This document shows positions 11,981-27,503 of a stretch of DNA of 64,000 nt, piece by piece. Source of the DNA: Chryseobacterium oryzae (GTDB lineage Bacteria; Bacteroidota; Bacteroidia; Flavobacteriales; Weeksellaceae); NCBI RefSeq assembly GCF_022811665.1, contig NZ_CP094529.1, forward strand, positions 2,108,001 through 2,172,000, read 5' to 3'. The notes under the pieces were generated by a model. It made no database searches. It was not told the DNA's origin and worked only from the letters and a program-made list of their open reading frames with translations. Made by a program: the position numbers and the translations under genes. The stretch's first letter is position 1; the number at the start of each line of letters is the position of its first letter.

Positions 11981-12079
11981 AAGTTGATGCATACATTTAG
12001 ATTCTATTTTAGTTATTTAAAAAAAAATTAAAAATGATGTTTCTGTTATGTTTTGTTTGTCGGAAAACCTCAAGAGTTT

Positions 12080-12087
12080 TATATTTG
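12080..12087 (+). promoter_or_regulatory. Putative promoter -7 element of the TauE/SafE-DUF1634 pair
   Basis: TATATTTG (consensus TAnnTTTG) ends 4 bases before the ATG at 12092, predicting a leaderless or nearly leaderless transcript, the mirror image of the DUF1543 promoter. Confidence 0.45.
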
Positions 12088-12091
12088 TAAC

Positions 12092-12922
12092 ATGTCGGAG
12101 ATCATCATACTTTTTCTGGGCGCTATTTCAGCAGGTCTTTTAGGTTCGCTCACCGGTTTAGGAGGTGGGGTTATTATTATTCCATTATTAACGCTTGGTT
12201 TTGGCGTTCCTATGCATTATGCCATTGGCGCATCCCTTATTTCGGTTATCGGAACTTCTTCGGGAGCTGCCGTTGCATTTGTAAAAGAAGGTTTTACCAA
12301 TATGCGGATAGGAATGTTTTTGGAAATCGCTACTACTGCAGGAGCCATTGCAGGAGCTTTGGTTTCCGGAATGCTGAATCCTAATACCATTGGAATTATT
12401 TTCGCCAGTATTCTTCTGTTAACGGTAATCTTAAATTTAAAAGGAAAACCCGATCATCAGGAACCTCTTATTAAAGGGAGCCTTGAAGATAAGCTGAAAC
12501 TGTACGGCACTTTCCCAGACAAAGGCGTAATTAAAAGTTATGCAGCAAGAAATACCATCCCTGGATTTTTTATGATGATGTTTGCAGGAGCCATGTCCGG
12601 ACTTTTAGGAATAGGTTCCGGAGCTTTGAAGGTTTTGGCAATGGATAATATGATGAGACTTCCTTTTAAAGTTTCTACTACCACAAGTAATTTTATGATT
12701 GGTGTAACAGCAGTTGCAAGTTCGCTTATTTACTTCCAGAGAGGCGAAATTATTCCGGTAATTGTTGCTCCTGTTTTGGTTGGTGTTGTAGTAGGAAGTT
12801 TTATAGGATCTAAAACCTTAATGGTATCTAAAACCAAAAAACTGAAAACCTTTTTTGCAATAGTAATCACTATTCTTTCAATTTACATGATGTATAACGG
12901 TATAAGAAGCAATTTCTCATGA
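12092..12922 (+). CDS. TauE/SafE-family sulfite exporter (first copy)
   Basis: A 276-residue inner-membrane protein with about eight hydrophobic helices and two repeated glycine-rich signatures, GSLTGLGGGVIIIPLL near the N-terminus and GLLGIGSGALKVLAM in the second half, characteristic of TauE/SafE (DUF81). Members export sulfite, sulfoacetate or similar organic acids. The ATG at 12092 is chosen over the longer TTG-initiated frame (12053) because it immediately follows a promoter element. Its last four bases (ATGA) overlap the DUF1634 start, showing translational coupling. Confidence 0.88.
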   Translation: MSEIIILFLGAISAGLLGSLTGLGGGVIIIPLLTLGFGVPMHYAIGASLISVIGTSSGAAVAFVKEGFTNMRIGMFLEIATTAGAIAGALVSGMLNPNTIGIIFASILLLTVILNLKGKPDHQEPLIKGSLEDKLKLYGTFPDKGVIKSYAARNTIPGFFMMMFAGAMSGLLGIGSGALKVLAMDNMMRLPFKVSTTTSNFMIGVTAVASSLIYFQRGEIIPVIVAPVLVGVVVGSFIGSKTLMVSKTKKLKTFFAIVITILSIYMMYNGIRSNFS

Positions 12923-13302
12923 GAAAAGATTTTACAGACCTAGACCTCAACCGTTCTGTCGGAAATCTTCTTCGTTTAGGAGTTATTCTTTCGGTAAGTA
13001 CTTCCATCATTGGCTTTATAAAGCTTTTTACTGAAGGTTTTAAAATGCCAAGAAAATATACCTTGCTGGAAATGGGAAATTCTTCGGAAAAAGTATGGAG
13101 CCATTTTTGGGAAACACTCATGAAAGGTGATGGTATGGCAATTATTCAGTTGGGAATTCTGATGCTTATTTTCACCCCTTTAATGAGAATTATTTTCGCA
13201 TTAATCGGCTACATGAAAGAAAAAGACTACGTATATGTAGTGATATCTACAATTGTTTTGGCAATTATGGCGATTAGTTTCTTTACGGGTTATGCCCATT
13301 AA
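12919..13302 (+). CDS. DUF1634 membrane protein, TauE partner
   Basis: A 127-residue protein with three predicted helices (about 16-36, 73-97, 105-124). The 'NLLRxGVxxSxxxxxxG' opening and the later 'LMKGDGMAIIQLGILxLIxTPxxR' segment fit DUF1634. Such genes often sit directly after TauE/SafE genes, suggesting that the two membrane proteins act together; the mechanism is unknown. The start overlaps the upstream stop by 4 bases. Confidence 0.82.
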   Translation: MRKDFTDLDLNRSVGNLLRLGVILSVSTSIIGFIKLFTEGFKMPRKYTLLEMGNSSEKVWSHFWETLMKGDGMAIIQLGILMLIFTPLMRIIFALIGYMKEKDYVYVVISTIVLAIMAISFFTGYAH

Positions 13303-15678: not shown

Positions 15679-16392
15679 TTAACGTTTGATTTCTGAGATT
15701 TGCTTTTTCACCTGTTCTTCTGTCACAAAACCAAGATTATCCCAAACCAACTGATTGTTTTTATATAATTTAAGAACCGGAAGTGCAGAAACACCCAATT
15801 CTTTGCATATCTCGGTATTTTCGTCTGCATTAATTCTTACAATTTTTACTTTATCCGGCATTTCAGCAGACATTTTATTTAAATAAGGTTCCATTTTTTT
15901 GCACGGAGCACACCATTCTGCATAGAAATCTACCAAAACAGGAAGATCATTTTTAATCATTTCATTAAATTGAACTAAACTTATTCCTTTGGAAGTAGAC
16001 TTTTTAATTTCAGAAAGATTGGCACTCCTCCATTTCATCATTCCACCTTGCAAATCATAAACATTTTTAAAACCCATTTCTTTCAATTTGGCAGCTGCAG
16101 CGGTACTTCTTGGACCGCTCATGCAATAAACAAAAACAGGTTTTTCTTTATTAAGAGTTTTTACTTTATCCGTAAAATCATCTGCATTCCAGTCGATATT
16201 CATTGCATTTTTCAGATGCCCGTTCTGGAATTCTCCGGGCGTTCTCACATCTACTAACTGTGCATCTTTGGTCTGTTCCAGCTTTTTAGAAAAAACAGCA
16301 ACGGAAAGACTGTTTTCATTGGTATTTTGTGCATTTCCGACCCCAAAAAATGCAATAACAAACAGAATTGTGATTATATTTTTTCTCGACAT
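15679..16392 (-). CDS. Periplasmic rhodanese-thioredoxin fusion protein
   Basis: A 237-residue protein with a signal peptide (1-21, ending GNAQ) and two domains. Residues about 30-125 form a rhodanese with its active-site loop CMSGPRS (Cys90). Residues about 135-237 form a thioredoxin with WCAPC (Cys161, Cys164) and cis-proline ALPVLKLY. Covalent linkage suggests that a persulfide formed on Cys90 is reduced or passed on by the thioredoxin dithiol. It lies 2 bases after trxA and 4 bases before the TlpA-like gene, next to a persulfide dioxygenase cluster, which supports a role in sulfane-sulfur handling. Confidence 0.88.
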   Translation of the reverse strand: MSRKNIITILFVIAFFGVGNAQNTNENSLSVAVFSKKLEQTKDAQLVDVRTPGEFQNGHLKNAMNIDWNADDFTDKVKTLNKEKPVFVYCMSGPRSTAAAAKLKEMGFKNVYDLQGGMMKWRSANLSEIKKSTSKGISLVQFNEMIKNDLPVLVDFYAEWCAPCKKMEPYLNKMSAEMPDKVKIVRINADENTEICKELGVSALPVLKLYKNNQLVWDNLGFVTEEQVKKQISEIKR

Positions 16393-16394
16393 TT

Positions 16395-16691
16395 TTAGCT
16401 GTTTTGTTTAATGAGTTTTTCCAGTTCTTCTGCTTGAAAAACACCGGACTGCTTCCATTTTACTTCTCCGTTTTTAAAAATCATCAAAGTAGGAACACTT
16501 CGAATTCCGAATTGTGCAGCAACTGCCTGATTTTTATCAACATCAATCTTCACAATACTTGCATCATCACCAATTTTCTTTTTCAAATCCTGAAGAATAG
16601 GAGCCTGCATTTTGCATGGACCGCACCATTCTGCAAAAAAATCTACCAAAACAGGTTTATCCTGATTAATAAGTTCCTGAAATTTATTCAT
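16395..16691 (-). CDS. trxA: Thioredoxin
   Basis: A 98-residue cytoplasmic thioredoxin with the classical WCGPC site (Cys23, Cys26), cis-proline SVPTLMIF near 72-79 and no signal peptide. It is the first gene of the operon with the rhodanese-thioredoxin fusion and the TlpA-like protein. It may be one of several thioredoxins of the cell, with the symbol assigned by family. The 220-base upstream region has a GAAATTTG element (16847-16854, minus strand), which would give a long leader; this is only a weak promoter candidate. Confidence 0.9.
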   Translation of the reverse strand: MNKFQELINQDKPVLVDFFAEWCGPCKMQAPILQDLKKKIGDDASIVKIDVDKNQAVAAQFGIRSVPTLMIFKNGEVKWKQSGVFQAEELEKLIKQNS

Positions 16692-16911: not shown

Positions 16912-17394
16912 TCAATGCGGTAATTTTTCCCGGAAATATCCATAAACCCATGTTCCGAAAACAGCACTTATTAAGGTAACCGTTATAACCAAAGCTCCTG
17001 TTCCTATTTGTGCAAAAAGTGGCCCCGGACAAGCTCCGGTAATTGCCCAGCCAAATCCAAAAATAAGTCCGCCGTAAATTTGACCTTTGTTAAACGTTTT
17101 CGGAGCTATAGAGATTTTCTCTCCGTAGATAGTTTTGATATTGAATTTTTTGATGATGAAAACCGATAGCATTCCCGTAACAACAGCACTTCCAATAACA
17201 CCGTACATGTGAAAAGACTGCAAGCGGAACATTTCCTGAATCCTGAACCAACTGATAACTTCTGCTTTTACAAATACAATCCCGAATAAAATGCCCAATA
17301 AAAGATATTTCAGATTGTGATACCATTGGTGCTTCAGATGGCTTTCGTTGGTACAAACACTGTCCTGATGACGGATATCTTTTTCTTTTTCCAT
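16912..17394 (-). CDS. YeeE/YedE transporter, C-terminal half protein (DUF6691 type)
   Basis: About 160 residues with four hydrophobic helices and the signature FGFGWAITGACPGPLFAQIG, the cysteine-containing motif of the second half of YeeE/YedE (TsuA-like thiosulfate) transporters. The ATG at 17394 is chosen because the longer frame overlaps the upstream gene. It follows the first-half protein by 11 bases. The split pair probably assembles into one transporter for thiosulfate or another sulfur species. It is the last gene of the operon that starts with the CstB-like enzyme. Confidence 0.85.
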   Translation of the reverse strand: MEKEKDIRHQDSVCTNESHLKHQWYHNLKYLLLGILFGIVFVKAEVISWFRIQEMFRLQSFHMYGVIGSAVVTGMLSVFIIKKFNIKTIYGEKISIAPKTFNKGQIYGGLIFGFGWAITGACPGPLFAQIGTGALVITVTLISAVFGTWVYGYFREKLPH

Positions 17395-17405
17395 AGATTT
17401 TAAAA

Positions 17406-17969
17406 TTAAAGTGAAAGAATAATGGGCAGAATTACATTCGCCATGAAAAAGCCACCTACCATAAAACAAACTGTTGCCACCAAAGACGGCCACTGCAGAT
17501 TAGACAACCCCATAATAGCATGTCCGCTGGTACACCCGCCCGCATAACGGGTTCCGAAACCAACTAAAAATCCACCGACCACCATCATTATGAAACCTCT
17601 TAATGTTAATAGACTTGCAAAATTCATTAATTGAACAGGAACAAGATTGCTGTAATCTGTAATTCCGTAAGTTGCAAGTTCTGTTTTAAGTGCAGAATTT
17701 ACGGACATTTCTCCGGGATTTATTAAGAAATGGGAAGAAATAATTCCGCCTAAAAAAATTCCGAAAACAAAAAAAAGATTCCAAAGTTCCTTTTTCCAGT
17801 CGTATTTGAAAAAGCCAATATTGGCAGGGACACACGCTGCACAAATATGCCTGAGCGATGAGCTAATCCCAAATGATTTGTTACCCAAAATAAGCAAAGC
17901 AGGCACAGTAAGACCAATTAAAGGGCCTGCAACATACCACGGCCAGGGTTCTTTTATAATTTCTAACAT
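17406..17969 (-). CDS. YeeE/YedE transporter, N-terminal half protein
   Basis: A 187-residue membrane protein with about five helices and the cysteine motif GFGTRYAGGCTSGHAIMGLS, typical of the first half of YeeE/YedE sulfur transporters, in which conserved Cys residues relay thiosulfate through the membrane. Single-chain homologs join both halves; here they are separate adjacent genes. It begins 10 bases after the CstB-like gene stop, supporting cotranscription and a shared role in sulfur import or export. Confidence 0.87.
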   Translation of the reverse strand: MLEIIKEPWPWYVAGPLIGLTVPALLILGNKSFGISSSLRHICAACVPANIGFFKYDWKKELWNLFFVFGIFLGGIISSHFLINPGEMSVNSALKTELATYGITDYSNLVPVQLMNFASLLTLRGFIMMVVGGFLVGFGTRYAGGCTSGHAIMGLSNLQWPSLVATVCFMVGGFFMANVILPIILSL

Positions 17970-17979
17970 TGATGTTTTA

Positions 17980-19395
17980 TTAAATATTTAAAATTTTGGT
18001 TTGACAAACAAAATCACTTTTAGGAATATCAGTTTCTGCAATGGCATTGAAACCGCCCTCAATTTCGGAAAAATTTCTGTAACCTCTTGCCTGAAGAATG
18101 CTTGCAGCCATCATACTCCTGTAACCTCCCGCACAGTGAAGGTAAAAATGCTCAGCAGGATTTATCGTATTTATCCAATCATTAATATAAGCCAAAGGTC
18201 TGTTGAAAGCCTCCTGAACATGTTCTGCATTATATTCGGATTCTTTTCGCACATCCAGAATTGTTGCTTCCTTTCCTTTTATTTCTTCTTCAAATTGCTT
18301 CGCAGAAATTCTGTTGACTAAGTCTATTTCTTTTCCACTATTTTTCCAGGCCTCAAAACCACCTTGCAGAAATCCGAGAACATTATCGAAACCAACTCTG
18401 CTCAGTCTCGTTACCGTTTCTTCCTCTTCATTTCTGTTGGTAATGAGAAGAATTGGTTGTTTTACATCTACCATCAACGCGCCTACCCAAGGTGCAAAAT
18501 CACCATTCAGCCCAATATTGATGGATTGTGGCACAAAGCCTTTTGCGAAATCCCCATTTTCCCTCACATCCAATAACAGAGCTCCGGAATGTTCTGCCAA
18601 TTCTTCGAACCCATCAGGAGAAAGTGCCTGTAAACCTTTAGATAAAACCTCATCGAAGCTATCGTATCCTTTTTTGTTCATTGCAACATTCATCCCGAAA
18701 TAAGCAGGTGGCGGTAAAAGGCCATCCGTAACTGCTTTGATAAAACTTTCCTTATCTTTCTGATTCAGTGCATAATTGGTCTTTTTCTGATTTCCCAAAG
18801 AGTCCACCGTTTCTTTCTGCATATTTTTACCACATGCAGAACCGGATCCATGCGCTGGATATACGGTAATATCATCATCCAGAGGGAGAATTTTATTATA
18901 TAAACTCTCGTAAAGCAACCCTGCTAATTCCTCCTGAGTCATGTTTGCCGCTTTTTGTGCCAAATCCGGACGACCCACATCGCCCAAAAACAATGTATCT
19001 CCGCTAAATAGGGCTTTTTCTTCACCATTTTCATCTATTAGGAGAAAAGAAGAACTTTCCATAGTGTGACCAGGCGTGTGCAGAACTTTTATTTTGATAT
19101 CACCTACCGAAAAAGCCTGATGGTCTTCTGCAATAATAGCTTCGAATTCTGGTTGTGCAGTGGGACCGTAAACTATGGGTGCATTGGTTTTGATACTTAA
19201 ATCCAAATGTCCGCTTACAAAATCGGCGTGAAAATGCGTTTCAAAGATATATTTGAGCTTTACATTGTCTTTTTGCAATCTTTCGAGATAAGGTTGCGTT
19301 TCTCTTAAAGGGTCAATAATTGCGGCCTCACCATTAGAAACGATATAATATGCGCCCTGTGCAAGACATCCTGTATAAATCTGTTCTATTTTCAT
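17980..19395 (-). CDS. CstB-like persulfide dioxygenase with pseudo-rhodanese and rhodanese domains
   Basis: A 471-residue multidomain enzyme. Residues about 1-235 form a metallo-beta-lactamase fold of the ETHE1 type: THFHAD (His54, His56, Asp58), His110, Asp133 and His182, with Cys188 in the GSGSACGKN segment. Residues about 262-355 form a rhodanese fold whose catalytic cysteine position is replaced (LLITNRN, Asn320). Residues about 365-460 form an intact rhodanese with CAGGYRS (Cys421). This order matches CstB of Staphylococcus, which oxidises low-molecular-weight persulfides to thiosulfate. It heads the operon with the YeeE/YedE halves and has a putative Crp/Fnr operator upstream. Confidence 0.88.
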   Translation of the reverse strand: MKIEQIYTGCLAQGAYYIVSNGEAAIIDPLRETQPYLERLQKDNVKLKYIFETHFHADFVSGHLDLSIKTNAPIVYGPTAQPEFEAIIAEDHQAFSVGDIKIKVLHTPGHTMESSSFLLIDENGEEKALFSGDTLFLGDVGRPDLAQKAANMTQEELAGLLYESLYNKILPLDDDITVYPAHGSGSACGKNMQKETVDSLGNQKKTNYALNQKDKESFIKAVTDGLLPPPAYFGMNVAMNKKGYDSFDEVLSKGLQALSPDGFEELAEHSGALLLDVRENGDFAKGFVPQSINIGLNGDFAPWVGALMVDVKQPILLITNRNEEEETVTRLSRVGFDNVLGFLQGGFEAWKNSGKEIDLVNRISAKQFEEEIKGKEATILDVRKESEYNAEHVQEAFNRPLAYINDWINTINPAEHFYLHCAGGYRSMMAASILQARGYRNFSEIEGGFNAIAETDIPKSDFVCQTKILNI

Positions 19396-19435: not shown

Positions 19436-19443
19436 CAAATTTC
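19436..19443 (-). promoter_or_regulatory. Putative promoter -7 element of the CstB-like operon
   Basis: Minus-strand GAAATTTG (7 of 8 to TAnnTTTG). Its TTTG core begins exactly 40 bases after the start of the upstream GTAAC dyad. Confidence 0.55.
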
Positions 19444-19465
19444 CGGGTTTATGATTTTCTGTACA

Positions 19466-19484
19466 GTCACTTTTGTTACATAAG
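19466..19484. promoter_or_regulatory. Putative Crp/Fnr operator 1 (upstream of the CstB-like operon)
   Basis: Minus strand CTTATGTAACAAAAGTGAC. The dyad GTAAC-N4-GTGAC (GTnAC-N4-GTnAC) would be centred about 41 bases before the likely transcription start, the class II activator position. CTTATGTAACAAAAGT is identical in the second site at 20379-20397. Confidence 0.6.
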
Positions 19485-19536
19485 AAACTCATTTCTAAAA
19501 CAGAGAATTTCTCGTGGCTCGGTGAAGCCAAAACAT

Positions 19537-20331
19537 TTATAAGAAGATTTCCTTTATAATGATATAAATTCCCATCACCAAAATAAACCAACCGAATGCA
19601 GGTTTCAACTTTTTACCATCAATTTTTTTTGATAATTGTGACCCGATAATAATCCCAACAATAGCAATGGATGAGATTGTTAAAAGTAATTTCCAGTCGA
19701 TTGCCAAGTTGTTGGCTGATGCAAAAAATCCGATGAGCGAATTGAGTGAAATAATGACGAGAGAAGTTCCAATGGCAATCTTCATAGGTGTTTTGAGTAG
19801 ATTAACCAATGCCGGAATAATCATAAAGCCACCTCCTGCACCTACCAAGCCTGTCAGAATACCGACAACGGAGCCTTCGCCCACCGCCAAAAGGGTATTA
19901 TCTTTCTGAAATTCAGGGTTATTAGCCATGTTTTCAGAATTTTTGCCAATCATTTTATAGGAAGCCAAAATCATCAGAACAGCAAAAACCAGTAATAGCA
20001 AAATATTTTTGGTCAGAACGAAACTATTAATGGTAAAAACATTATTCGGAATCATCGGTAAAATATAATTCCGGGTAAGAAAAATAGAAATGATGGAAGG
20101 AATCCCAAAAACCAAAGCTGTTTTAAGATTAACCAAACCGTTTTTAAAGTAAGATACAGAACCTACTAAACTGCTTATTCCTACAATGAAAAGTGAGTAT
20201 TCTGTTGCCAAAAAAGCATCCAACCCAAAAAGATACACCAAAACGGGAACGGTAAGAATACTTCCGCCGCCGCCGATTAATCCCAATGAAATTCCTATAA
20301 AAACTGAAGCAATATATCCGAAAATTTCCAT
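19537..20331 (-). CDS. TauE/SafE-family sulfite/sulfur exporter (second copy)
   Basis: A 264-residue membrane protein with about eight helices and the duplicated glycine-rich motifs GLIGGGGSILTVPVL and GLVGAGGGFMIIPAL of TauE/SafE. It lies between the Crp/Fnr regulator and the CstB-like operon and has its own operator and promoter, so it is likely to export sulfite or thiosulfate produced by persulfide oxidation. The pairing of TauE with CstB is known from the staphylococcal cst locus. It is distinct from the other TauE gene in the window, which has a DUF1634 partner. Confidence 0.88.
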   Translation of the reverse strand: MEIFGYIASVFIGISLGLIGGGGSILTVPVLVYLFGLDAFLATEYSLFIVGISSLVGSVSYFKNGLVNLKTALVFGIPSIISIFLTRNYILPMIPNNVFTINSFVLTKNILLLLVFAVLMILASYKMIGKNSENMANNPEFQKDNTLLAVGEGSVVGILTGLVGAGGGFMIIPALVNLLKTPMKIAIGTSLVIISLNSLIGFFASANNLAIDWKLLLTISSIAIVGIIIGSQLSKKIDGKKLKPAFGWFILVMGIYIIIKEIFL

Positions 20332-20348
20332 TTCTCAACTTTATGCTG

Positions 20349-20356
20349 CAAAGATG
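20349..20356 (-). promoter_or_regulatory. Putative promoter -7 element of the second TauE gene
   Basis: Minus-strand CATCTTTG followed by C (7 of 8 to TAnnTTTG). The TTTG core again begins exactly 40 bases after the start of the GTAAC dyad. Confidence 0.55.
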
Positions 20357-20378
20357 AAAATCCTGGAAAAGGTGTACC

Positions 20379-20397
20379 GCTACTTTTGTTACATAAG
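20379..20397. promoter_or_regulatory. Putative Crp/Fnr operator 2 (upstream of the second TauE gene)
   Basis: Minus strand CTTATGTAACAAAAGTAGC, sharing the first 16 bases with operator 1. It sits just past the 3' end of the Crp/Fnr gene itself, within 2 bases of its stop. Confidence 0.6.
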
Positions 20398-20398
20398 C

Positions 20399-21031
20399 CT
20401 AAATTGTACTTAAAAGTTCAATTTTGTTTCTTCCCAATTTCAGCTTTCCCGAGTATTCCAATTGTTTTAACAATCTCGAAATGACTACTCTTGCAGTTCC
20501 AAGTTCGTTGGCGAGTTGCTCATGCGTTACGGAAATCGTTGTAGAATGAAGGATTTCGGATTTTTTATGGAGAAGATTCAGTAATCTTTCGTCCACTTTT
20601 TTAAATGCAATAGCATTGATAATATCCAGCAATTCTTCAAAACGCTTGTGATAAAGCCTGAAGATATAATCCAGCCATTCCGGATATTCTTTGATGAAAA
20701 GAGAAACTTTGTCCACGGGGAGAAAAAGAATTTCGGTATCTTCCTCAACTTCAGCTTTTACAATGCTTTTTTCGTTGTGCATTCCGCCGAGAAAAGACAT
20801 AATGCAACTTTCACCCGCTTTAATGTAATACAACAGAATTTCTCTGCCGTCTTCTTCGGTACGGATGACTTTCAGCATTCCGTTCATCACAATCGGAATA
20901 GAACGGATGGACGCATTTTCATCTAAAATAATATCACCTTCACGATACGTTTTTGCAACACCGTTTTTGTAAAGTTTCTCTACCAGTTCCGGCGAAGAAG
21001 TAAATTCTGAATTAAGAATAGATGACTGCAT
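20399..21031 (-). CDS. Crp/Fnr-family transcriptional regulator
   Basis: A 210-residue protein with an N-terminal cyclic-nucleotide-binding-like beta-roll (about 20-110), a dimerisation helix (about 115-145) and a C-terminal winged helix: ISVTHEQLANELGTARVVISR (about 166-186). It lacks the four-cysteine cluster of Fnr and the heme-ligand features of known NO sensors that can be recognised by eye. A single Cys76 (GESCIMSF) sits in the beta-roll and could be a thiol sensor. It is next to the sulfur cluster, whose two promoters carry matching Crp-like dyads, so a role as persulfide- or redox-responsive activator is inferred. Confidence 0.9.
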   Translation of the reverse strand: MQSSILNSEFTSSPELVEKLYKNGVAKTYREGDIILDENASIRSIPIVMNGMLKVIRTEEDGREILLYYIKAGESCIMSFLGGMHNEKSIVKAEVEEDTEILFLPVDKVSLFIKEYPEWLDYIFRLYHKRFEELLDIINAIAFKKVDERLLNLLHKKSEILHSTTISVTHEQLANELGTARVVISRLLKQLEYSGKLKLGRNKIELLSTI

Positions 21032-21211: not shown

Positions 21212-21676
21212 ATGTATAAAAAAATCACCATTGTAGCTTTAATTATTTCCCTTGTTTCAAACGCAGTCCTCATTTACAAATTCTTTTATCAGGGCGAAAA
21301 AGTTGAACTTGCAAAAGATGGAAGAACAGAAATAAAAATGCCTAAAGAAAACCGCGAGTTTATAATGAAAGAAATGCGAGGTTTTTTGGAAAGTGTACAG
21401 CAAATTAATGAAGGTATTGCTAAAAATGATCCTCAAATTATTGCTAAAGTGGAAAAACAATCCGGAACCTGCAAAATAAATGAAGTTCCACAAGGGATGA
21501 TACGTTCCCTGCCTCTCGGGTTTAAAGAAATGGGCTTCAATACTCACGAACTTTTTGATGCTATGGCAAAAATGGCTCAAAAAAATTATGACCGACAACA
21601 GATTCAGGAAAAAATGAACCAACTCCTCAACAACTGCGTTTCCTGCCATAAAACCTACAAAATAACTGCTGAGTAA
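21212..21676 (+). CDS. Cytochrome c'-like (single C-terminal heme) protein
   Basis: A 154-residue protein with an N-terminal hydrophobic helix (about 5-24) that anchors or exports it, a helical body, and one heme c motif CVSCH (142-146) close to the C-terminus. Heme attachment near the C-terminus of a helical protein is the layout of cytochromes c' and c556; cytochromes c' bind NO. Full family membership is not proven. It lies between the sulfur block and the NO island and 42 bases before an Rrf2 gene, consistent with an electron-carrying or NO-binding role. Confidence 0.72.
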   Translation: MYKKITIVALIISLVSNAVLIYKFFYQGEKVELAKDGRTEIKMPKENREFIMKEMRGFLESVQQINEGIAKNDPQIIAKVEKQSGTCKINEVPQGMIRSLPLGFKEMGFNTHELFDAMAKMAQKNYDRQQIQEKMNQLLNNCVSCHKTYKITAE

Positions 21677-21692
21677 TTTAACCACAAATACT

Positions 21693-21700
21693 TAACTTTG
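21693..21700 (+). promoter_or_regulatory. Putative promoter -7 element of the first Rrf2 gene
   Basis: TAACTTTG, an exact TAnnTTTG match, 18 bases before the Rrf2 start and inside the short gap after the cytochrome gene. Confidence 0.5.
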
Positions 21701-21718
21701 TTATACTAGAAAATGTAA

Positions 21719-22132
21719 ATGCTGATTTTTTCCAACACCTGTCAATACGCAATTAAAGCCTGCATTGTTCTCGCCAACGAGAATGAGAAAACCGGAATAA
21801 AAGCTATTTCTGAAAAAATTGGTACACCTGCAGCGTTTACTTCCAAAATTTTGCAGCAACTTACAAAAAAAGGACTTATCTCTTCCGGAAAAGGAAAAGG
21901 AGGCGGCTTTTTTATGACCGAAGAACAAGTTGAGAAGTTGACGATACAGGATATTTATGAAAATTTTGAAGGAAAAGAAGTTCTCACTTCATGTCTTTTA
22001 GGGCTGAAAACGTGCAATTCGCAAAACCCTTGTCCCATACATCATTTAGCGGCTGAAATAAGACAGAAAATCATCATGATGTTTCAGTACAAAATTAAAG
22101 AACTGAAGGACTTCGGAACTCTTATGATTTAA
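21719..22132 (+). CDS. Rrf2-family Fe-S regulator, left boundary of NO island
   Basis: A 137-residue winged-helix repressor. The N-terminal helix CQYAIKACIVLA and the wing GKGKGGGFFM fit the Rrf2 family. Cys92, Cys99 and Cys105 (C-X6-C-X5-C) are candidate iron-sulfur ligands, as in NsrR and IscR. NsrR senses NO through such a cluster; location beside NO-handling genes makes an NO-responsive role likely but unproven. The second Rrf2 protein in the window has the same cysteine positions. Its 3' end overlaps the convergent oxidase-like gene by 11 bases. Confidence 0.9.
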   Translation: MLIFSNTCQYAIKACIVLANENEKTGIKAISEKIGTPAAFTSKILQQLTKKGLISSGKGKGGGFFMTEEQVEKLTIQDIYENFEGKEVLTSCLLGLKTCNSQNPCPIHHLAAEIRQKIIMMFQYKIKELKDFGTLMI

Positions 22133-23327
22133 ATTTCAATGTTTTGAACAAAGTAACAATGGAAATCATCATCACCAACGAAGCAAATAACAGCCAAAAT
22201 TTCGCACTTAAAAAAGGAATATAAAAGACAGAAAATATCCCTGAAAGTCCTAAAATTAGTTCATTCAAAACAATTCCGAACACCAGCATTAGAATACTTA
22301 TTTTAAGTATTTTATCGATTTTAATATTGGATACCATTACGATTTTCCAAATCAGGAAAATGCTAATTCCCATCAGCAAAACCAAATGAAGATAGGCAAT
22401 AATCAGATTTATATTATTGAAGAAAAACACACCCAAAGCTGGTATTACCGACAAACTCTGAAGAACGGATTTCCCCAAAAAAGCCAATCCAACCACAGAC
22501 AAAAGTAATTTACCCATAAAATTCTGATTCTGAAACCAATCGATTTTTCTTATCCACCTTAAAAATAAAACCGCTCCAACTAACTGAACAATGGCAATCA
22601 AACCGAAGAAAAAGAGCCAATAAGCACTCATTGTTATCCATAAAATGGAAAGTCCATATCCGAAGAAACAGCCTATTGACAGGAGATAAAAAATCGTTTT
22701 ATTCCATTTTTCCGAAATGTTGATTTGGTGTTTTTTTAATGTTATCAAAAACAAACCAATGCACGAAAACAAGAAGAATCCGTTGTACTGGTAATGCAGG
22801 TAAAAATAAGTAGAAGCTCGGAAAAGCACTTCAAACTCCTCTTTCCTCGATGAAAAATAAGCCAATCCAAAAATTCCTACCGCAGAAAATGTGGCAAAAA
22901 AAGCACCGGCTTTCAGCCAGATCATTTCGGGATTTTTATTGTTTTTGGTATCGAAAAGTAAAAATCCAAAATAAGCGAAACCTGTAAACAATGCCACAGA
23001 AGAAAAAACGATGGAAAGCCAAAAATAACCGCCATACAAAAAACTGAACAGCATCCCATAAGAACCTATCTGATTGAAAATCATCATCCATTGGTATTTT
23101 TGGAGATTGATTTCTTTTTTATTTTCACTGAGATATTTCGTCACAAAAAGATAAATCGTAGCACTTACCCAACCGTAAAATGCAAAATGGGAATGCGATT
23201 CCTGCATAAACTGATGAGAAAACCAAGGAAGGGAAAACGCCATTTCGTACCGCATCATTACGCCCACAATAGACACAATAAAGAAATTGAAAAGGCAGAG
23301 TTTCACCCAAAATCCAAAGTTTTTCAT
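22122..23327 (-). CDS. Uncharacterised 10-12 helix membrane protein, divergent heme-copper-oxidase-like
   Basis: About 401 residues, almost entirely hydrophobic helices. Scattered histidines sit in contexts reminiscent of subunit I of heme-copper oxidases and NO reductases: ESHSHFAFYGW (His45, His47), YFYLHYQYNGFF (His178) and AYLHLVLLMG (His314). It lacks the full set of six metal-ligand histidines and the catalytic HHLYF-type pair, so it is not a normal oxidase. It ends the operon downstream of norB, hemerythrin, DUF488 and the 71-residue ORF. The ATG at 23327 is preferred over 23360 because it follows the upstream stop by 2 bases. The function is unknown; it could be an accessory factor or NO/heme-binding protein. 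Confidence 0.7.
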   Translation of the reverse strand: MKNFGFWVKLCLFNFFIVSIVGVMMRYEMAFSLPWFSHQFMQESHSHFAFYGWVSATIYLFVTKYLSENKKEINLQKYQWMMIFNQIGSYGMLFSFLYGGYFWLSIVFSSVALFTGFAYFGFLLFDTKNNKNPEMIWLKAGAFFATFSAVGIFGLAYFSSRKEEFEVLFRASTYFYLHYQYNGFFLFSCIGLFLITLKKHQINISEKWNKTIFYLLSIGCFFGYGLSILWITMSAYWLFFFGLIAIVQLVGAVLFLRWIRKIDWFQNQNFMGKLLLSVVGLAFLGKSVLQSLSVIPALGVFFFNNINLIIAYLHLVLLMGISIFLIWKIVMVSNIKIDKILKISILMLVFGIVLNELILGLSGIFSVFYIPFLSAKFWLLFASLVMMISIVTLFKTLKFKS

Positions 23328-23329
23328 AG

Positions 23330-23545
23330 TTAATCTGCGATTCTTTCCATTGTGCGGCATTTGGTTTTATCACCAGTTTTCACCACTGAAACGTCCAAAT
23401 ATTTTACAGTTCCGGAACTGGCTTTTTCAAACTGTTTTGCTTTTTTGTCGGCATATTCGTAGGTATATCCAATTCCCATTACCACTTTGTGCCCGTTGCA
23501 CTCTCCCATTGCCAGGTAAAGATATTCTCCTAAAGTATGATTCAT
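23330..23545 (-). CDS. Uncharacterised 71-residue protein of the nor operon
   Basis: A small soluble protein starting MNHTLGEYLYLAMGECNGHKV, with two cysteines (in GECNGH and TKCRTM) and no signal or membrane segment. I recognise no family. It is likely real because it fills the space between the DUF488 gene (31 bases upstream) and the oxidase-like gene (2 bases downstream) on the same strand, leaving little room for an alternative. A metal- or cofactor-binding role is possible from the Cys/His content but unsupported. Confidence 0.55.
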   Translation of the reverse strand: MNHTLGEYLYLAMGECNGHKVVMGIGYTYEYADKKAKQFEKASSGTVKYLDVSVVKTGDKTKCRTMERIAD

Positions 23546-23576
23546 TTCAGTTAAAGTTTTTAATGTAATTTTAAAG

Positions 23577-23945
23577 TTATTTTTTTGATTTGTTGTTGAG
23601 CAATTGTTCCAGATAATCCCTTAAAACCAAAGGATGACAATGTTTTTCATCTTTTGCCGCATAAACCAGCGTTATTTTTTCCTGTTGCCCATTTTTTTCT
23701 AAAAAAGGCTTTCCGGGATTTCGCTCCAAAAGCTCTTCTTTATATTTCCGGGAAAACTCGTCCCAAAGTAAAGGATCGTGATGAAACCATTCCCGAAGCT
23801 CTGTTGATGGTGCAAGGTCTTTGCCCCATTCATCCAAAGCGGCTTTTTCTTTTGAGATTCCTCTTGGCCAAATCCGGTCTACCAAAACACGGTAACCATC
23901 TTCGGGAGAAGCATCTTCGTACACTCTTTTTAATATGATTTCCAT
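23577..23945 (-). CDS. DUF488 (YeaO-like) protein
   Basis: A 122-residue protein with the strongly conserved DUF488/YeaO signature: VLVDRIWPRGISKEKAALDEW near 21-41 and LVYAAKDEKHCHPLVLRDYL near 92-111. The family is widespread, sometimes linked to stress or metal genes, and has no assigned reaction. It lies 24 bases after the hemerythrin gene on the same strand, in the operon that handles NO, which suggests a stress-related role in this organism. Confidence 0.88.
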   Translation of the reverse strand: MEIILKRVYEDASPEDGYRVLVDRIWPRGISKEKAALDEWGKDLAPSTELREWFHHDPLLWDEFSRKYKEELLERNPGKPFLEKNGQQEKITLVYAAKDEKHCHPLVLRDYLEQLLNNKSKK

Positions 23946-23969
23946 TGATTTATTTTTTTAAATTGATGA

Positions 23970-24422
23970 TCATTTCCAAAACTCATCCACATAGTCATCT
24001 TCTTCTTTGTGATGATGATTGCTTAATTCTACACCTATTGTATCCATCTGTTCATCGGAAAGATGTTCTTCAAGATAAGGAAAAACACTTCTTTCCTCAA
24101 AACGGATATGTTTGTATAAAGCATCAGCAAAATCTGATAGCAACTGCTGGTTATCTGATTGATTGATACTTCCAATTAAACGGCTAATTTCGCGATGTTC
24201 TTTCTCAATTTGGTTCTGTAAACCCTCGTTCGACAATTCCGGAAGCACATCATCTTCAGTCTTGAAATGGTTATGAAGATTGTTTTCCCAATAATAATTA
24301 ATGTAATTTTTGATTCGTTCGTAAGAAACCTCTTTTTTGATGCCCTGACGGATTTTCCAGCAACAAAGCAAACCAAAATGATGGTCTCGGGACAAGGGTA
24401 CGAGATTTTCGTTTCTTTTCAT
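23970..24422 (-). CDS. Hemerythrin-domain protein
   Basis: A 150-residue four-helix protein with His and Glu residues spaced as in hemerythrin-like domains: RDHHFGLL near 12-19, LHNHFKTEDDVLPEL near 49-63, EKEHREISRL, and YKHIRFEERSVFPYLEEHL. These can hold a di-iron centre that binds O2 or NO. Lying after the quinol NO reductase and close to the hemerythrin-type repair protein Ric, it probably scavenges NO or O2 or stores iron under nitrosative stress. A hairpin between norB and this gene may lower its expression. Confidence 0.85.
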   Translation of the reverse strand: MKRNENLVPLSRDHHFGLLCCWKIRQGIKKEVSYERIKNYINYYWENNLHNHFKTEDDVLPELSNEGLQNQIEKEHREISRLIGSINQSDNQQLLSDFADALYKHIRFEERSVFPYLEEHLSDEQMDTIGVELSNHHHKEEDDYVDEFWK

Positions 24423-24459
24423 AGATTGAATTTTAATGATTTTTTATTTTTAAAATTAA

Positions 24460-24493
24460 TGAAAAAGAACCGCCAAAATAAGATGACGGCTCC
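24460..24493 (-). terminator. Possible terminator or attenuator after norB
   Basis: On the minus strand GAGCCGTCA pairs imperfectly (7 of 9) with TGGCGGTTC, followed by TTTTT. It lies in the 87-base gap between norB and the hemerythrin gene. Confidence 0.45.
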
Positions 24494-24509
24494 TGCTTTT
24501 AATCATATT

Positions 24510-26759
24510 TTATCTTTTCTCTTTTAGCGACCAACCGGTTTTCAGTCCTATAATGAAAATAACTAATAAAAATTCGCCTACCGCAAGCATAATATCCCCC
24601 GGAACACGTAGCCATCTCAAGGTTTTCATCATATCCGTCTGCATAAATTCGGCAGAACGGGCGTACCAATAGCCTTCTTTTATGGAAGCTACCGACTGCA
24701 TAATGCCGATTGGCAATAAACTGATTGTTACCATTACCAAAAGTCCGATGTTGGTGAGCCAGAATGCCCAACCGATCAGTTTGTCATTCCATTCTCTGTC
24801 GGGATAAAGTCCTCTCAGCATAAACATCATCAATCCGATTCCCAAAATCCCGTACACTCCGAAAAGTGCTGCGTGACCGTGAACAGCGGTGGTATTCAAC
24901 CCTTGAATGTAGTATAATGCAATCGGCGGATTAATGGCGAATCCGAAAATCCCTGCTCCTAAAAAGTTCCAGAAACACATCGCAACGAAACAGTAGATCG
25001 GCCATTTGTAGGCTTTGATCCATTTGGTTGATTTACTTATTTGATAATTCTGCCAGGCTTCAAAACCGATCAGTACCAACGGAACAATTTCCAAGGCGCT
25101 GAATGTCGCACCCAATGCCAGAACAGCCGTTGGCGTCGCACTGAAGTACAAGTGATGGAACGTTCCCAAAATGCCACCTGCAAGGAAAATAATTGTAGAA
25201 AATAATACTGCATGCGTGGCAGATTTAAGTCTTAATAATCCTAATCTTGTAAAGAGGAAAGCGGCAACCACGGTGGCAAAAACCTCGAAAAAACCTTCAA
25301 CCCAAAGATGCACTACCCACCATCTCCAGTATTCGGCAATTGCCATGTGGGTTTGTCTGCCATACATCAATCCTGCACCGTAAAACATCGCAATTGCAAC
25401 CGCAGAAAGAGTGAAAAGTAAAAGCAAATGCCGGTCGGCATCTTTTTTCTTGAGTGCCGGAAGAAGTGCGCGAACCATCAAGACTAACCAAAGAATCAAT
25501 CCAACTAATAAAAGGATTTGCCAGATTCTGCCCAGCTCTACATATTCGTAGCCGGAATGTCCCCAAAGGAAATTATCTACATAACCTAATTTCTGCATTA
25601 CACCAAGCCATTGTCCAGCCAAAGAACCGAAAACCACAATCAGCAACGCTCCGAACAATACATTGACGCCTAAAACCTGATATTTCGGTTCGTAACCTGA
25701 AACGGCTGGTGCAATATATAAACCTGTGGCAAGCCAGGAAGTTGCAATCCAGAAAATCGCCAACTGCACGTGCCAGCTTCTGGAAATGGATTGCGGAAGA
25801 ACCTCATCCAACGGAATGCCGTAAAAAGCACTGCCTTCTACCCCATAATGGGCGGTAATAACGCCGGCAAGCATCTGAACCAAAATCAGCAATGCCACTA
25901 CCCAAATATATTTCAGAGTCGCTCTCATAGAAGGTGTTGGTTTCATATTTCTGAGCGGATCTTCCAATGGCAGCATCTCGCTTGAATTGATTTCCTCTTC
26001 CTTGTTTCGGGCGTGGTAAAATACCAGCAGACCAACACATCCCAGCAACATCAGCACGCTGAAACCAGACCAAAGGTGAAGCGATGGCGGTGGTACGTTG
26101 CCAATCAGCTCATCGTGTGGCCAGTTGTTGGTGTACGTTACATCGTCACCGGGACGATCCGTAATGCAAACCCAGGCTGCCCAGGAGAAAAAGGCATTCA
26201 TTTTTGCCATTCTTTCCGGAGTTTTTACTGTATTTTTCGGGATGGCGTACTGGTCTCTTAGTTTTGCCATTTCCGGAGCGTTCATAAATATTTTAGCATA
26301 GTAATCTGCCAATTCTGCCTGTACTTTTGCTCTTTCGGGAGAAATCACAATTGTATTTTTGGCTTCGTCCAACGTATTTTTACGAAGTTCCTTTTTCAGT
26401 AATACCTGATATTTTGCCTGCTCGTCATCGGGTAAATCTTTATAGACTTTCCCATCTTTTTTAGCTAGTTCTTCCAGAAGAAGCAAAGATTCACGATGGA
26501 GATAATCCGCACTCCAGTCCGGTGCAATGTAGGCACCGTGTCCCCAGATGCTTCCAACGGTTTGTCCTCCGATAGATTGCCAGACATTCTGTCCGTCTTT
26601 GATGTCTTGTCCGGTAGCCACCACTTTGCCATCGGTGGTTACCACTTTATCCGGAACGGGCGGAATTTTCCTGTAAATCTCCACGCCGAAGAAAATAAGG
26701 ACAGCAAAGGAACCAATAATAACGGCTGCAAGCCACGTCCATAACTTTTTAGGTGTCAT
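24510..26759 (-). CDS. norB: Quinol-dependent nitric oxide reductase (qNOR)
   Basis: A 749-residue inner-membrane enzyme that reduces two NO to N2O with quinol electrons. The long N-terminal extracytoplasmic domain after helix 1 (about 30-230), lacking any CxxCH heme c motif, marks the single-subunit quinol type. The catalytic core has VVHLWVEGFFEVFA (FeB His and the essential Glu), HHLYFS and VHGHAALFGVYG with heme-ligand histidines. It follows ric by 18 bases and is probably cotranscribed with it. By eye some parts look richer in G+C than the surroundings. Confidence 0.95.
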   Translation of the reverse strand: MTPKKLWTWLAAVIIGSFAVLIFFGVEIYRKIPPVPDKVVTTDGKVVATGQDIKDGQNVWQSIGGQTVGSIWGHGAYIAPDWSADYLHRESLLLLEELAKKDGKVYKDLPDDEQAKYQVLLKKELRKNTLDEAKNTIVISPERAKVQAELADYYAKIFMNAPEMAKLRDQYAIPKNTVKTPERMAKMNAFFSWAAWVCITDRPGDDVTYTNNWPHDELIGNVPPPSLHLWSGFSVLMLLGCVGLLVFYHARNKEEEINSSEMLPLEDPLRNMKPTPSMRATLKYIWVVALLILVQMLAGVITAHYGVEGSAFYGIPLDEVLPQSISRSWHVQLAIFWIATSWLATGLYIAPAVSGYEPKYQVLGVNVLFGALLIVVFGSLAGQWLGVMQKLGYVDNFLWGHSGYEYVELGRIWQILLLVGLILWLVLMVRALLPALKKKDADRHLLLLFTLSAVAIAMFYGAGLMYGRQTHMAIAEYWRWWVVHLWVEGFFEVFATVVAAFLFTRLGLLRLKSATHAVLFSTIIFLAGGILGTFHHLYFSATPTAVLALGATFSALEIVPLVLIGFEAWQNYQISKSTKWIKAYKWPIYCFVAMCFWNFLGAGIFGFAINPPIALYYIQGLNTTAVHGHAALFGVYGILGIGLMMFMLRGLYPDREWNDKLIGWAFWLTNIGLLVMVTISLLPIGIMQSVASIKEGYWYARSAEFMQTDMMKTLRWLRVPGDIMLAVGEFLLVIFIIGLKTGWSLKEKR

Positions 26760-26777
26760 ATATTTTTGTTTTGATGC

Positions 26778-27503
26778 TTAATGTTCCACTGAAAACTCTT
26801 TCTCCAACTCGATAGATTTTGGGAAAAGGATATTATTTTCAAGATGGATGTGTTTGTGTAAATCGTTCTCGAAATCCTGAAGCATTGCAAATGTCACTTT
26901 GTAGGTGTTGCAGGCATCGGCTGGCGGCGTATATTCGTTGGTGAGTTCTGCAATTTGTCGCAGGCGTTCCCCTTCCACGGTATGTTCGTGCTTCATCATA
27001 TTTACCGGATTTTCCACAGTTCCGAAAGGCGGCTGCGGAATAGCACTGCCATCAATCTTAGCTTTCACCATATTTTTGATGAATGGGAAAAGCATCAGTT
27101 CCTCTTTTTTCAAATGTGCGCCCAAATCCTGTGCAGAAGCATCAAACAATTCTTTAATTTCGAATAATTCTGGATGACGACCGCCGTGCACTTTACAAAG
27201 TTTGTCTAAGAAAGCCTGTAAAACGGGCGTTTTTTCATACACGTAGCGGTGATGGGTTTTCTCTACATAATCTGTCAGCAAATCCAACGGCCAGCTTTTA
27301 AAATCTATGGAGCCGCCATTATCCTGAGGAAGATTTTCGATTTCTGCATAAATTGAGTTGGCATCCAGCATTTTGTTTTCGCAGGCATCCTCTATCGTTC
27401 TTCCGCCTTTGCAGCAGAAATCGATACCATTTTTTTTGAAAATAGCTGCCGTTCTGAAATCTTCAGCCACAATCTCTCCTATAAAATCTGTCTTGATATT
27501 CAT
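26778..27503 (-). CDS. ric: Iron-sulfur cluster repair di-iron protein (Ric/ScdA/YtfE)
   Basis: A 241-residue protein. The N-terminal ScdA domain (about 1-60) has the FCCKGG motif (Cys30, Cys31). The hemerythrin-like di-iron domain (about 80-235) has histidines in KTHHRYVYE, LGAHLKKEELMLFPFI, MKHEHTVEGE and LHKHIHLENNILFPKS. Ric repairs Fe-S clusters damaged by NO or oxidants and can release or reduce NO. It heads the operon with norB. A sequence resembling the putative Rrf2 motif upstream of nirK lies at 27512-27529, just before its start. Confidence 0.93.
   Translation of the reverse strand: MNIKTDFIGEIVAEDFRTAAIFKKNGIDFCCKGGRTIEDACENKMLDANSIYAEIENLPQDNGGSIDFKSWPLDLLTDYVEKTHHRYVYEKTPVLQAFLDKLCKVHGGRHPELFEIKELFDASAQDLGAHLKKEELMLFPFIKNMVKAKIDGSAIPQPPFGTVENPVNMMKHEHTVEGERLRQIAELTNEYTPPADACNTYKVTFAMLQDFENDLHKHIHLENNILFPKSIELEKEFSVEH

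Follow-up and report, generated by a model that had tools for sequence, protein, structure and literature searches.

The locus described here raises the question of which protein controls its predicted sulfane-sulfur genes, and in response to which signal. In the window, by which we mean the whole 64-kb stretch of Chryseobacterium oryzae DNA that was analysed, the gene of a Crp/Fnr-family regulator (20399..21031, minus strand; 210 aa; Pfam cNMP_binding and HTH_Crp_2, and alignments) encodes a single cysteine, C76, and the recognition helix GTARVVISRLL. It is followed on the same strand by genes for a TauE/SafE-family permease (19537..20331; Pfam TauE), a CstB-like MBL - pseudo-rhodanese - rhodanese protein (17980..19395; Pfam, and near full-length alignment to 3tp9 and 3r2u) and two Sulf_transp half-proteins of the YeeE/YedE type (17406..17969, Pfam Sulf_transp; 16912..17394, Pfam Sulf_transp and DUF6691). 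Genes for a thioredoxin (16395..16691, minus; Pfam Thioredoxin) and a rhodanese-thioredoxin protein (15679..16392, minus; Pfam Rhodanese and Thioredoxin) are possibly co-transcribed, judging by strand and order. In the alignment to 3tp9 and 3r2u, the CstB-like protein has no cysteine in its first rhodanese loop and one in the second (HCAGGYRS); with an MBL dioxygenase domain, a pseudo-rhodanese and a rhodanese with a cysteine loop it has the domains of a CstB, and it is predicted to be a persulfide dioxygenase. On its other side, crp adjoins an NO-related cluster (21212-27503) with genes for cytochrome c', Rrf2, NnrS-like, hemerythrin-like, qNOR-like and RIC/ScdA-like proteins, named partly by eye. 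At 12053-13302 lies a second TauE gene, followed on the opposite strand by a gene for a small membrane protein; no Crp site is present there.

The sequence-only reading of this DNA had described a shared sequence with a dyad in the cstB and tauE promoters, and the 16-mer CTTATGTAACAAAAGT indeed occurs exactly twice in the window, at 20382-20397 and 19469-19484, both on the minus strand. One copy falls in the 67 nt that separate crp from tauE, the other upstream of the CstB-like gene. The dyads read TGTAAC-AAAA-GTAGC before tauE and TGTAAC-AAAA-GTGAC before cstB, and the degenerate downstream half-site makes them lopsided. That the two intergenic regions share no other evident similarity was not quite right, as the common block spans about 25 bases and extends as NNCNGTACA. 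The resulting operator blocks, CTTATGTAACAAAAGTAGCGGTACA upstream of tauE (20373..20397, minus; 16-nt dyad core 20378-20393) and CTTATGTAACAAAAGTGACTGTACA upstream of cstB (19460..19484, minus; core 19465-19480), are both kept in relatives. Each is followed by a putative -7 element, CATCTTTG in the tauE promoter (20349..20356, minus; TTTG at 20349-20352) and GAAATTTG in the cstB promoter (19436..19443, minus; TTTG at 19436-19439), and in both the TTTG lies exactly 40 nt past the dyad G. We take this TTTG to be part of the -7 element, presuming the consensus and position of flavobacterial -7 elements.

The spacing claimed by the sequence-only reading was confirmed by a genome pattern search, in which TGTAACNNNNGTNNC-N26-TTTG had two exact matches in the whole genome, both at the tauE and cstB promoters; the window thus holds two, versus none in 200 first-order Markov resamplings. 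With one mismatch the pattern had 12 further matches in the genome, and the backwards control one per strand. The 25-mer CTTATGTAACAAAAGTAGCTGTACA, with up to three mismatches, likewise matched the 3.24-Mb genome only at the tauE and cstB sites, and its backwards control nowhere. Looser patterns carried no information: GTNACN4GTNAC with one mismatch gave 508 matches per strand versus 994 in the backwards control, and TTNTGTAACNAAAGTNNCTGTA with two mismatches was found in 105 of 148 family genomes, yet its backwards control also matched in many and the count is not evidence. An NtcA-type reading of the site (GTA-N8-TAC) was rejected, as the window has a right half other than TAC. The predicted regulon in the C. 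oryzae genome is small, with two promoters. Class II activators occupy a site whose centre is near -41.5 and whose distance to the core promoter is fixed; the constant distance to TTTG would give both sites this position, and from this geometry we infer activation.

Conservation of the dyad in orthologous promoters had been set beforehand as the test on which the idea could fail, and it held over many genera. We examined 193 loci with a Crp relative (46-100% identity by tblastn), composed of 30 from a family search, 40 stretches, 25 from a phylum search, 18 more stretches and 80 named contigs, the last being the best 80 of 533 relatives and all Chryseobacterium or Epilithonimonas records. Some genomes are represented twice, and the 193 loci comprise 176 different crp gene sequences. 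The strict site TGTnA[CT]N4[AG]TnnC, sought downstream of crp over at most 1.7 kb, occurred 297 times, in 178 of the loci. Its TTTG stood at exactly +40 in 251 cases and at +42 in one, and at none of 39-42 in 45; in the controls, TTTG was at +40 in 0/16 sites on the opposite strand, 0/11 in reversed sequence and 1/22 upstream of crp. After removal of identical contexts, 208 of 251 sites had TTTG at 39-42. In Val-type loci, as defined below by the recognition helix, the site profiles show CTTATGTAACAAAAGTAGCtGTA in both the first and the second promoters (56 and 37 sites), continuing as CA.tTTTGCa in the first and gGAAaTTTGtA in the second.

In two of the 15 loci that lack a site, the sequence stops within 110 nt of crp, and one more (L115) has a site about 3.6 kb from the crp start; the other 12 showed no site in 1.4-3.5 kb of sequence downstream of crp. 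In one of these 12, L142, a TGTGATAATTATCAC palindrome lies 1.35 kb before the start of crp; it has a TGTGA half despite the Val-type Crp of that locus. A set of distant loci from the phylum search, mostly of one family (L155-L160, L163, L165, L167, L171-L174, L176-L178), has the dyad at the crp end with TTTG not at +40, as if another promoter type were used. As a control set we took 13 promoters of second cstB paralogs, 12 of which lacked any dyad up to 200 nt from the start. In the remaining one (L304) a dyad with an ATCAC half lies at -84, TTTG following at +40, and the Crp of that genome (L123) has a Glu helix; farther matches with TTTG at +40 lie at -232 (L301), -1313 (L303) and -1361 (L304). 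The second CstB-like paralog of C. oryzae itself (L180; C1:3018300-3021300) is 72% identical and has no Crp dyad. About 97 nt before its start stands a TAGACCAGGTCTA palindrome, which we take to resemble a NemR box and which is perhaps a TetR-type operator; with the pattern used, no such palindrome was present in the 12 other second-paralog promoters.

The genes behind the sites are largely of sulfur metabolism. Clustering of the first genes after sites in 104 deduplicated loci (n=158) gave 59 MBL/rhodanese, 55 TauE, 18 thioredoxin-type and 9 Sulf_transp proteins, with 7 outer-membrane efflux proteins, 3 YgaP-like proteins and a few others as minor groups. In the 75 full named loci, tauE lies downstream of crp on its strand in 68, cstB in 67 and the two Sulf_transp genes in 74 and 70. 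In other genomes, a site with TTTG at +40 also precedes a second, 463-aa MBL-rhodanese gene (L181, L286, L287, L289), a lone rhodanese gene (L288) or, directly, Sulf_transp (L287, L289). Several Glu-helix Crp relatives (L119, L120, L124, L126-L130) have a second site farther on, with a TolC-like outer-membrane efflux protein as the next gene in seven, hinting at a linked export function. Matches to cytochrome c', Rrf2, NnrS-like and qNOR genes were absent within 4 kb of crp in all 75 full named loci, a distance at which qNOR is only just reachable. Regulation by NO, as read from the neighbouring genes of the window, was rejected on this lack of conserved adjacency.

The protein that reads the sites can be sought in the recognition helix. 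V182 of the regulator occupies, by alignment, the place of E181, the Glu in the CRP helix RETVGR. Older work on CRP E181 mutants reportedly exists. According to passages of Rodionov et al. (2005, PMC1274295), CRP/FNR positions 180 and 181 correlate with operator bases, and the HcpR2 motif GTAACnnnnGTTAC accompanies the loss of Glu181. In our loci a Val helix generally goes with TGTAA, and Glu, Ala or Ser mostly with TGTGA. In Val-type loci, 240 of 246 sites have G at position 7 in neither half, while Glu-type loci have G at this position in at least one half in 34 of 36 sites and Ala, Ser or Thr loci in 12 of 15; with identical contexts removed, the rule is followed by 198/201, 34/36 and 11/14 sites, respectively. 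Five of the six Val-type exceptions are the cstB sites of one genus (L102-L106) and the sixth is a poor match in L093. That genus, the main exception to the rule, combines its Val helix with a perfect palindrome, TGCAACTTAAGTTGCA, in the tauE promoter and with TGTGATTTTTGTTACA in the cstB promoter.

For 102 of the 104 deduplicated loci, the base class is the one expected from the residue class. On a tree on which 103 of these could be placed, with the helix columns left out and L102-L106 dropped by deduplication, the residue class requires 6 changes and the base class 8. On well-supported branches, three independent pairs were available, in which the base changed in the same direction in 2.9 of 3 on average (sign test p 0.25), a comparison that cannot reach significance because there are only three pairs. 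The genome of C. oryzae holds 22 Crp-type HTH matches at E up to 1, 8 of them above the Pfam cut-off, and among the ten best Val occurs only in the adjacent Crp; the other nine, by eye, have Glu. A Crp of only 34% identity (L291) shares the Val (NTSRVVISRLL), and before cstB and tauE its locus carries TGTAAC dyads that have TTTG at +40.

Site and regulator also occur together. Among 60 congeneric genomes, the architecture with the AAAA core (up to one mismatch) was present in 42, and exactly these 42 hold a Crp ortholog (E below 1e-100); the other 18 lack both, two of them holding only a 49-51% relative. The Fisher value of 1e-15 is no clean probability, given that the genomes share ancestry and that the island travels as one unit, and the co-occurrence is partly co-inheritance because site and crp share one island. 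Outside the 60, one congeneric genome (G098) carries a perfect site in front of an MBL-rhodanese gene, with a best Crp match of only E 8.8e-32. The adjacent Crp, already named as the prime candidate regulator from the sequence, is thus supported as the reader of the sites by helix-operator covariation, co-occurrence and its sole Val helix among the ten best HTHs.

What this regulator might sense was approached through the protein itself. It scores above the cut-offs of PF00027 and PF13545, which places it in the CRP/FNR superfamily, and no NCBIfam equivalog matched it above its cut-off. Residues of the phosphate-binding cassette of CRP contact cAMP; here the cassette Glu has no counterpart in the loop GESCIMSF, and Met, Val, Ser or Leu stands at the aligned place in 192 rows, so the protein is predicted not to be a cAMP-CRP. 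The 4Fe-4S cluster of FNR takes four cysteines. Exactly one cysteine is present in 173 of 193 homologs, two in 17, three in 2 and none in 1, which is truncated, and an FNR-type oxygen sensor is accordingly not what the alignment predicts. C76 is present in 192 of the 193 (the truncated row being the remainder) and lies, by alignment, in a stretch inserted into the loop from which CRP builds its cAMP pocket; this conservation suggests persulfide sensing. The closest solved sequence, the Crp/Fnr-family regulator 3dv8 of Eubacterium rectale, likewise has a cysteine at the C76 position, but differs in Glu at the 181 position, another cysteine nearby and an identity of about 26% in the structural alignment. 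Because this distant protein shares the cysteine, C76 is perhaps older than a sulfur role, or not a sulfur feature. In a structure search with the regulator model CRP folds ranked top, but with poor superposition (rmsd about 15), and the AlphaFold model (mean pLDDT 72.9, below 50 in residues 78-85) is too weak to position C76.

In the mechanism that we propose, a Crp dimer would bind TGTAAC-N4-GTnnC in the promoters of tauE and of the cstB-yeeE operon, with its centre near -42. Bound there, it would switch on both promoters, as a class II activator because the dyad centre keeps a constant distance to TTTG. The signal would be a build-up of sulfane sulfur as persulfide, polysulfide or a thiosulfate-derived form, and sensing would proceed through the single cysteine C76. 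We consider it probable that the adjacent Crp acts in this way, as a local sulfur-pathway class II activator of tauE and the cstB-yeeE operon that responds to sulfane sulfur. What the sequence shows are the sites, their exact spacing, their conservation, their covariation with Crp and the sulfur nature of the targets; activation is read from the geometry, and sulfane sulfur as the signal is the least certain part. The wider proposal is more tentative, possible rather than probable, namely that a one-cysteine Crp/Fnr subfamily across Bacteroidota is a sulfane-sulfur sensor whose persulfidated C76 turns on tauE and CstB-type genes.

That the block could be a mere core-promoter element without any regulator is scarcely credible. 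Its fixed spacing to TTTG would fit, but there are two copies per genome rather than hundreds, genomes without this Crp lack the block, its bases covary with the Crp helix, and 45 sites keep the dyad although TTTG is at none of 39-42. That some other CRP/FNR protein binds the sites is very improbable: the other Crp-type HTHs of the genome supply candidates, and G098 keeps a site without a close ortholog, but among the ten best HTHs all except that of the adjacent Crp show Glu at the 181 position, the operator base tracks the helix of the adjacent Crp, and site and ortholog are jointly absent in 18 congeneric genomes.

If the adjacent Crp binds, its signal and its sign might still differ from our proposal. 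It could control the sulfur genes and yet respond to NO, to redox state or to some other small molecule, in the way of HcpR and HcpR2; the HcpR2 motif class is the same in the passages seen of PMC1274295, and NO-related genes adjoin crp in the window. We regard this as rather unlikely, since these neighbours are not kept beside crp in the 75 full named loci, qNOR being barely reachable there, and the targets are still sulfur genes where the operon is rearranged. It is unlikely, too, that the same Crp represses from the same sites and is released by the sulfur signal, in the manner of CstR, SqrR and BigR. Repression would suit the conserved TGTA, which lies about where a -33 element would presumably sit, but 251 of the 297 sites keep TTTG at exactly 40 nt and would be centred near -42, as class II activator sites are. 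The precedent for repression is that the persulfide regulators CstR, SqrR and BigR are all repressors in the review passages (PMC9774590, PMC8148161).

Should the proposed sensing through C76 prove true, a one-cysteine persulfide sensor would be present in a protein family that is not known for such a role. An operator that has co-evolved several times with helix position 181 would then amount to a natural mutational series, and the orthologs illustrate clearly how a transcription factor evolves in concert with its operator. Direct tests are within reach: the locus comes down to a single gene and two exact operators, with one predicted contact between residue and base and a single candidate residue for sensing.

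The regulator belongs to the CRP/FNR superfamily, and its motif class and helix rule were already known from HcpR2, while the sulfur role appears to be new. The passages of two reviews name CstR, SqrR/BigR and FisR as regulators of persulfide oxidation (PMC9774590, PMC8148161). Neither a CRP/FNR regulator of a persulfide dioxygenase operon nor Bacteroidota control of persulfide detoxification was found in the literature searched, a scope that most subscription journals lie outside. HcpR2, in the parts of PMC1274295 seen, resembles the present regulator in the motif class GTAACnnnnGTTAC, in a loss of Glu181 tied to an operator change and in being a local regulator beside its target. It differs in having Pro, Ser or Gln at 181 and in controlling hcp in nitrosative stress, whereas here the residue is Val and the targets are sulfane-sulfur genes. 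The homologs have Val, Glu, Ala, Ser or Thr at this position and do not classify as HcpR2, and hcp is absent among the first-target clusters listed (MBL/rhodanese, TauE, thioredoxin, Sulf_transp, OEP, YgaP-like). A parallel for the C76 proposal is the Crp-like A1S_1182 of Acinetobacter baumannii, a CRP-family protein whose cysteine is persulfidated after sulfide, with an effect on function stated in the passage to be unknown (PMC7315123); that protein, however, is of CRP/Vfr type (50-54% identical to CRP/Vfr) and linked there to biofilm, not to a persulfide dioxygenase operon. SqrR and BigR (ArsR repressors) and FisR (a sigma-54 activator) are, as far as the passages go, likewise local regulators of sulfide/persulfide oxidation genes, but belong to other protein families and have two or three cysteines, where the regulator here has one. 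Closest in gene content is the cst operon of Staphylococcus aureus, in which a CstB-type persulfide dioxygenase is under local control with sulfur transport genes nearby; its CstR, in the same review passages (PMC9774590, PMC8148161), is a CsoR-family repressor with a dithiol site. The expectation that control here is unlike that of the staphylococcal locus agrees with the genome of C. oryzae, which has no CsoR/CstR match (PF02583) at E up to 0.01, the control being positive in 6 of 14 genomes. If our proposal is true, CRP/FNR would join these families in running persulfide-oxidising operons.
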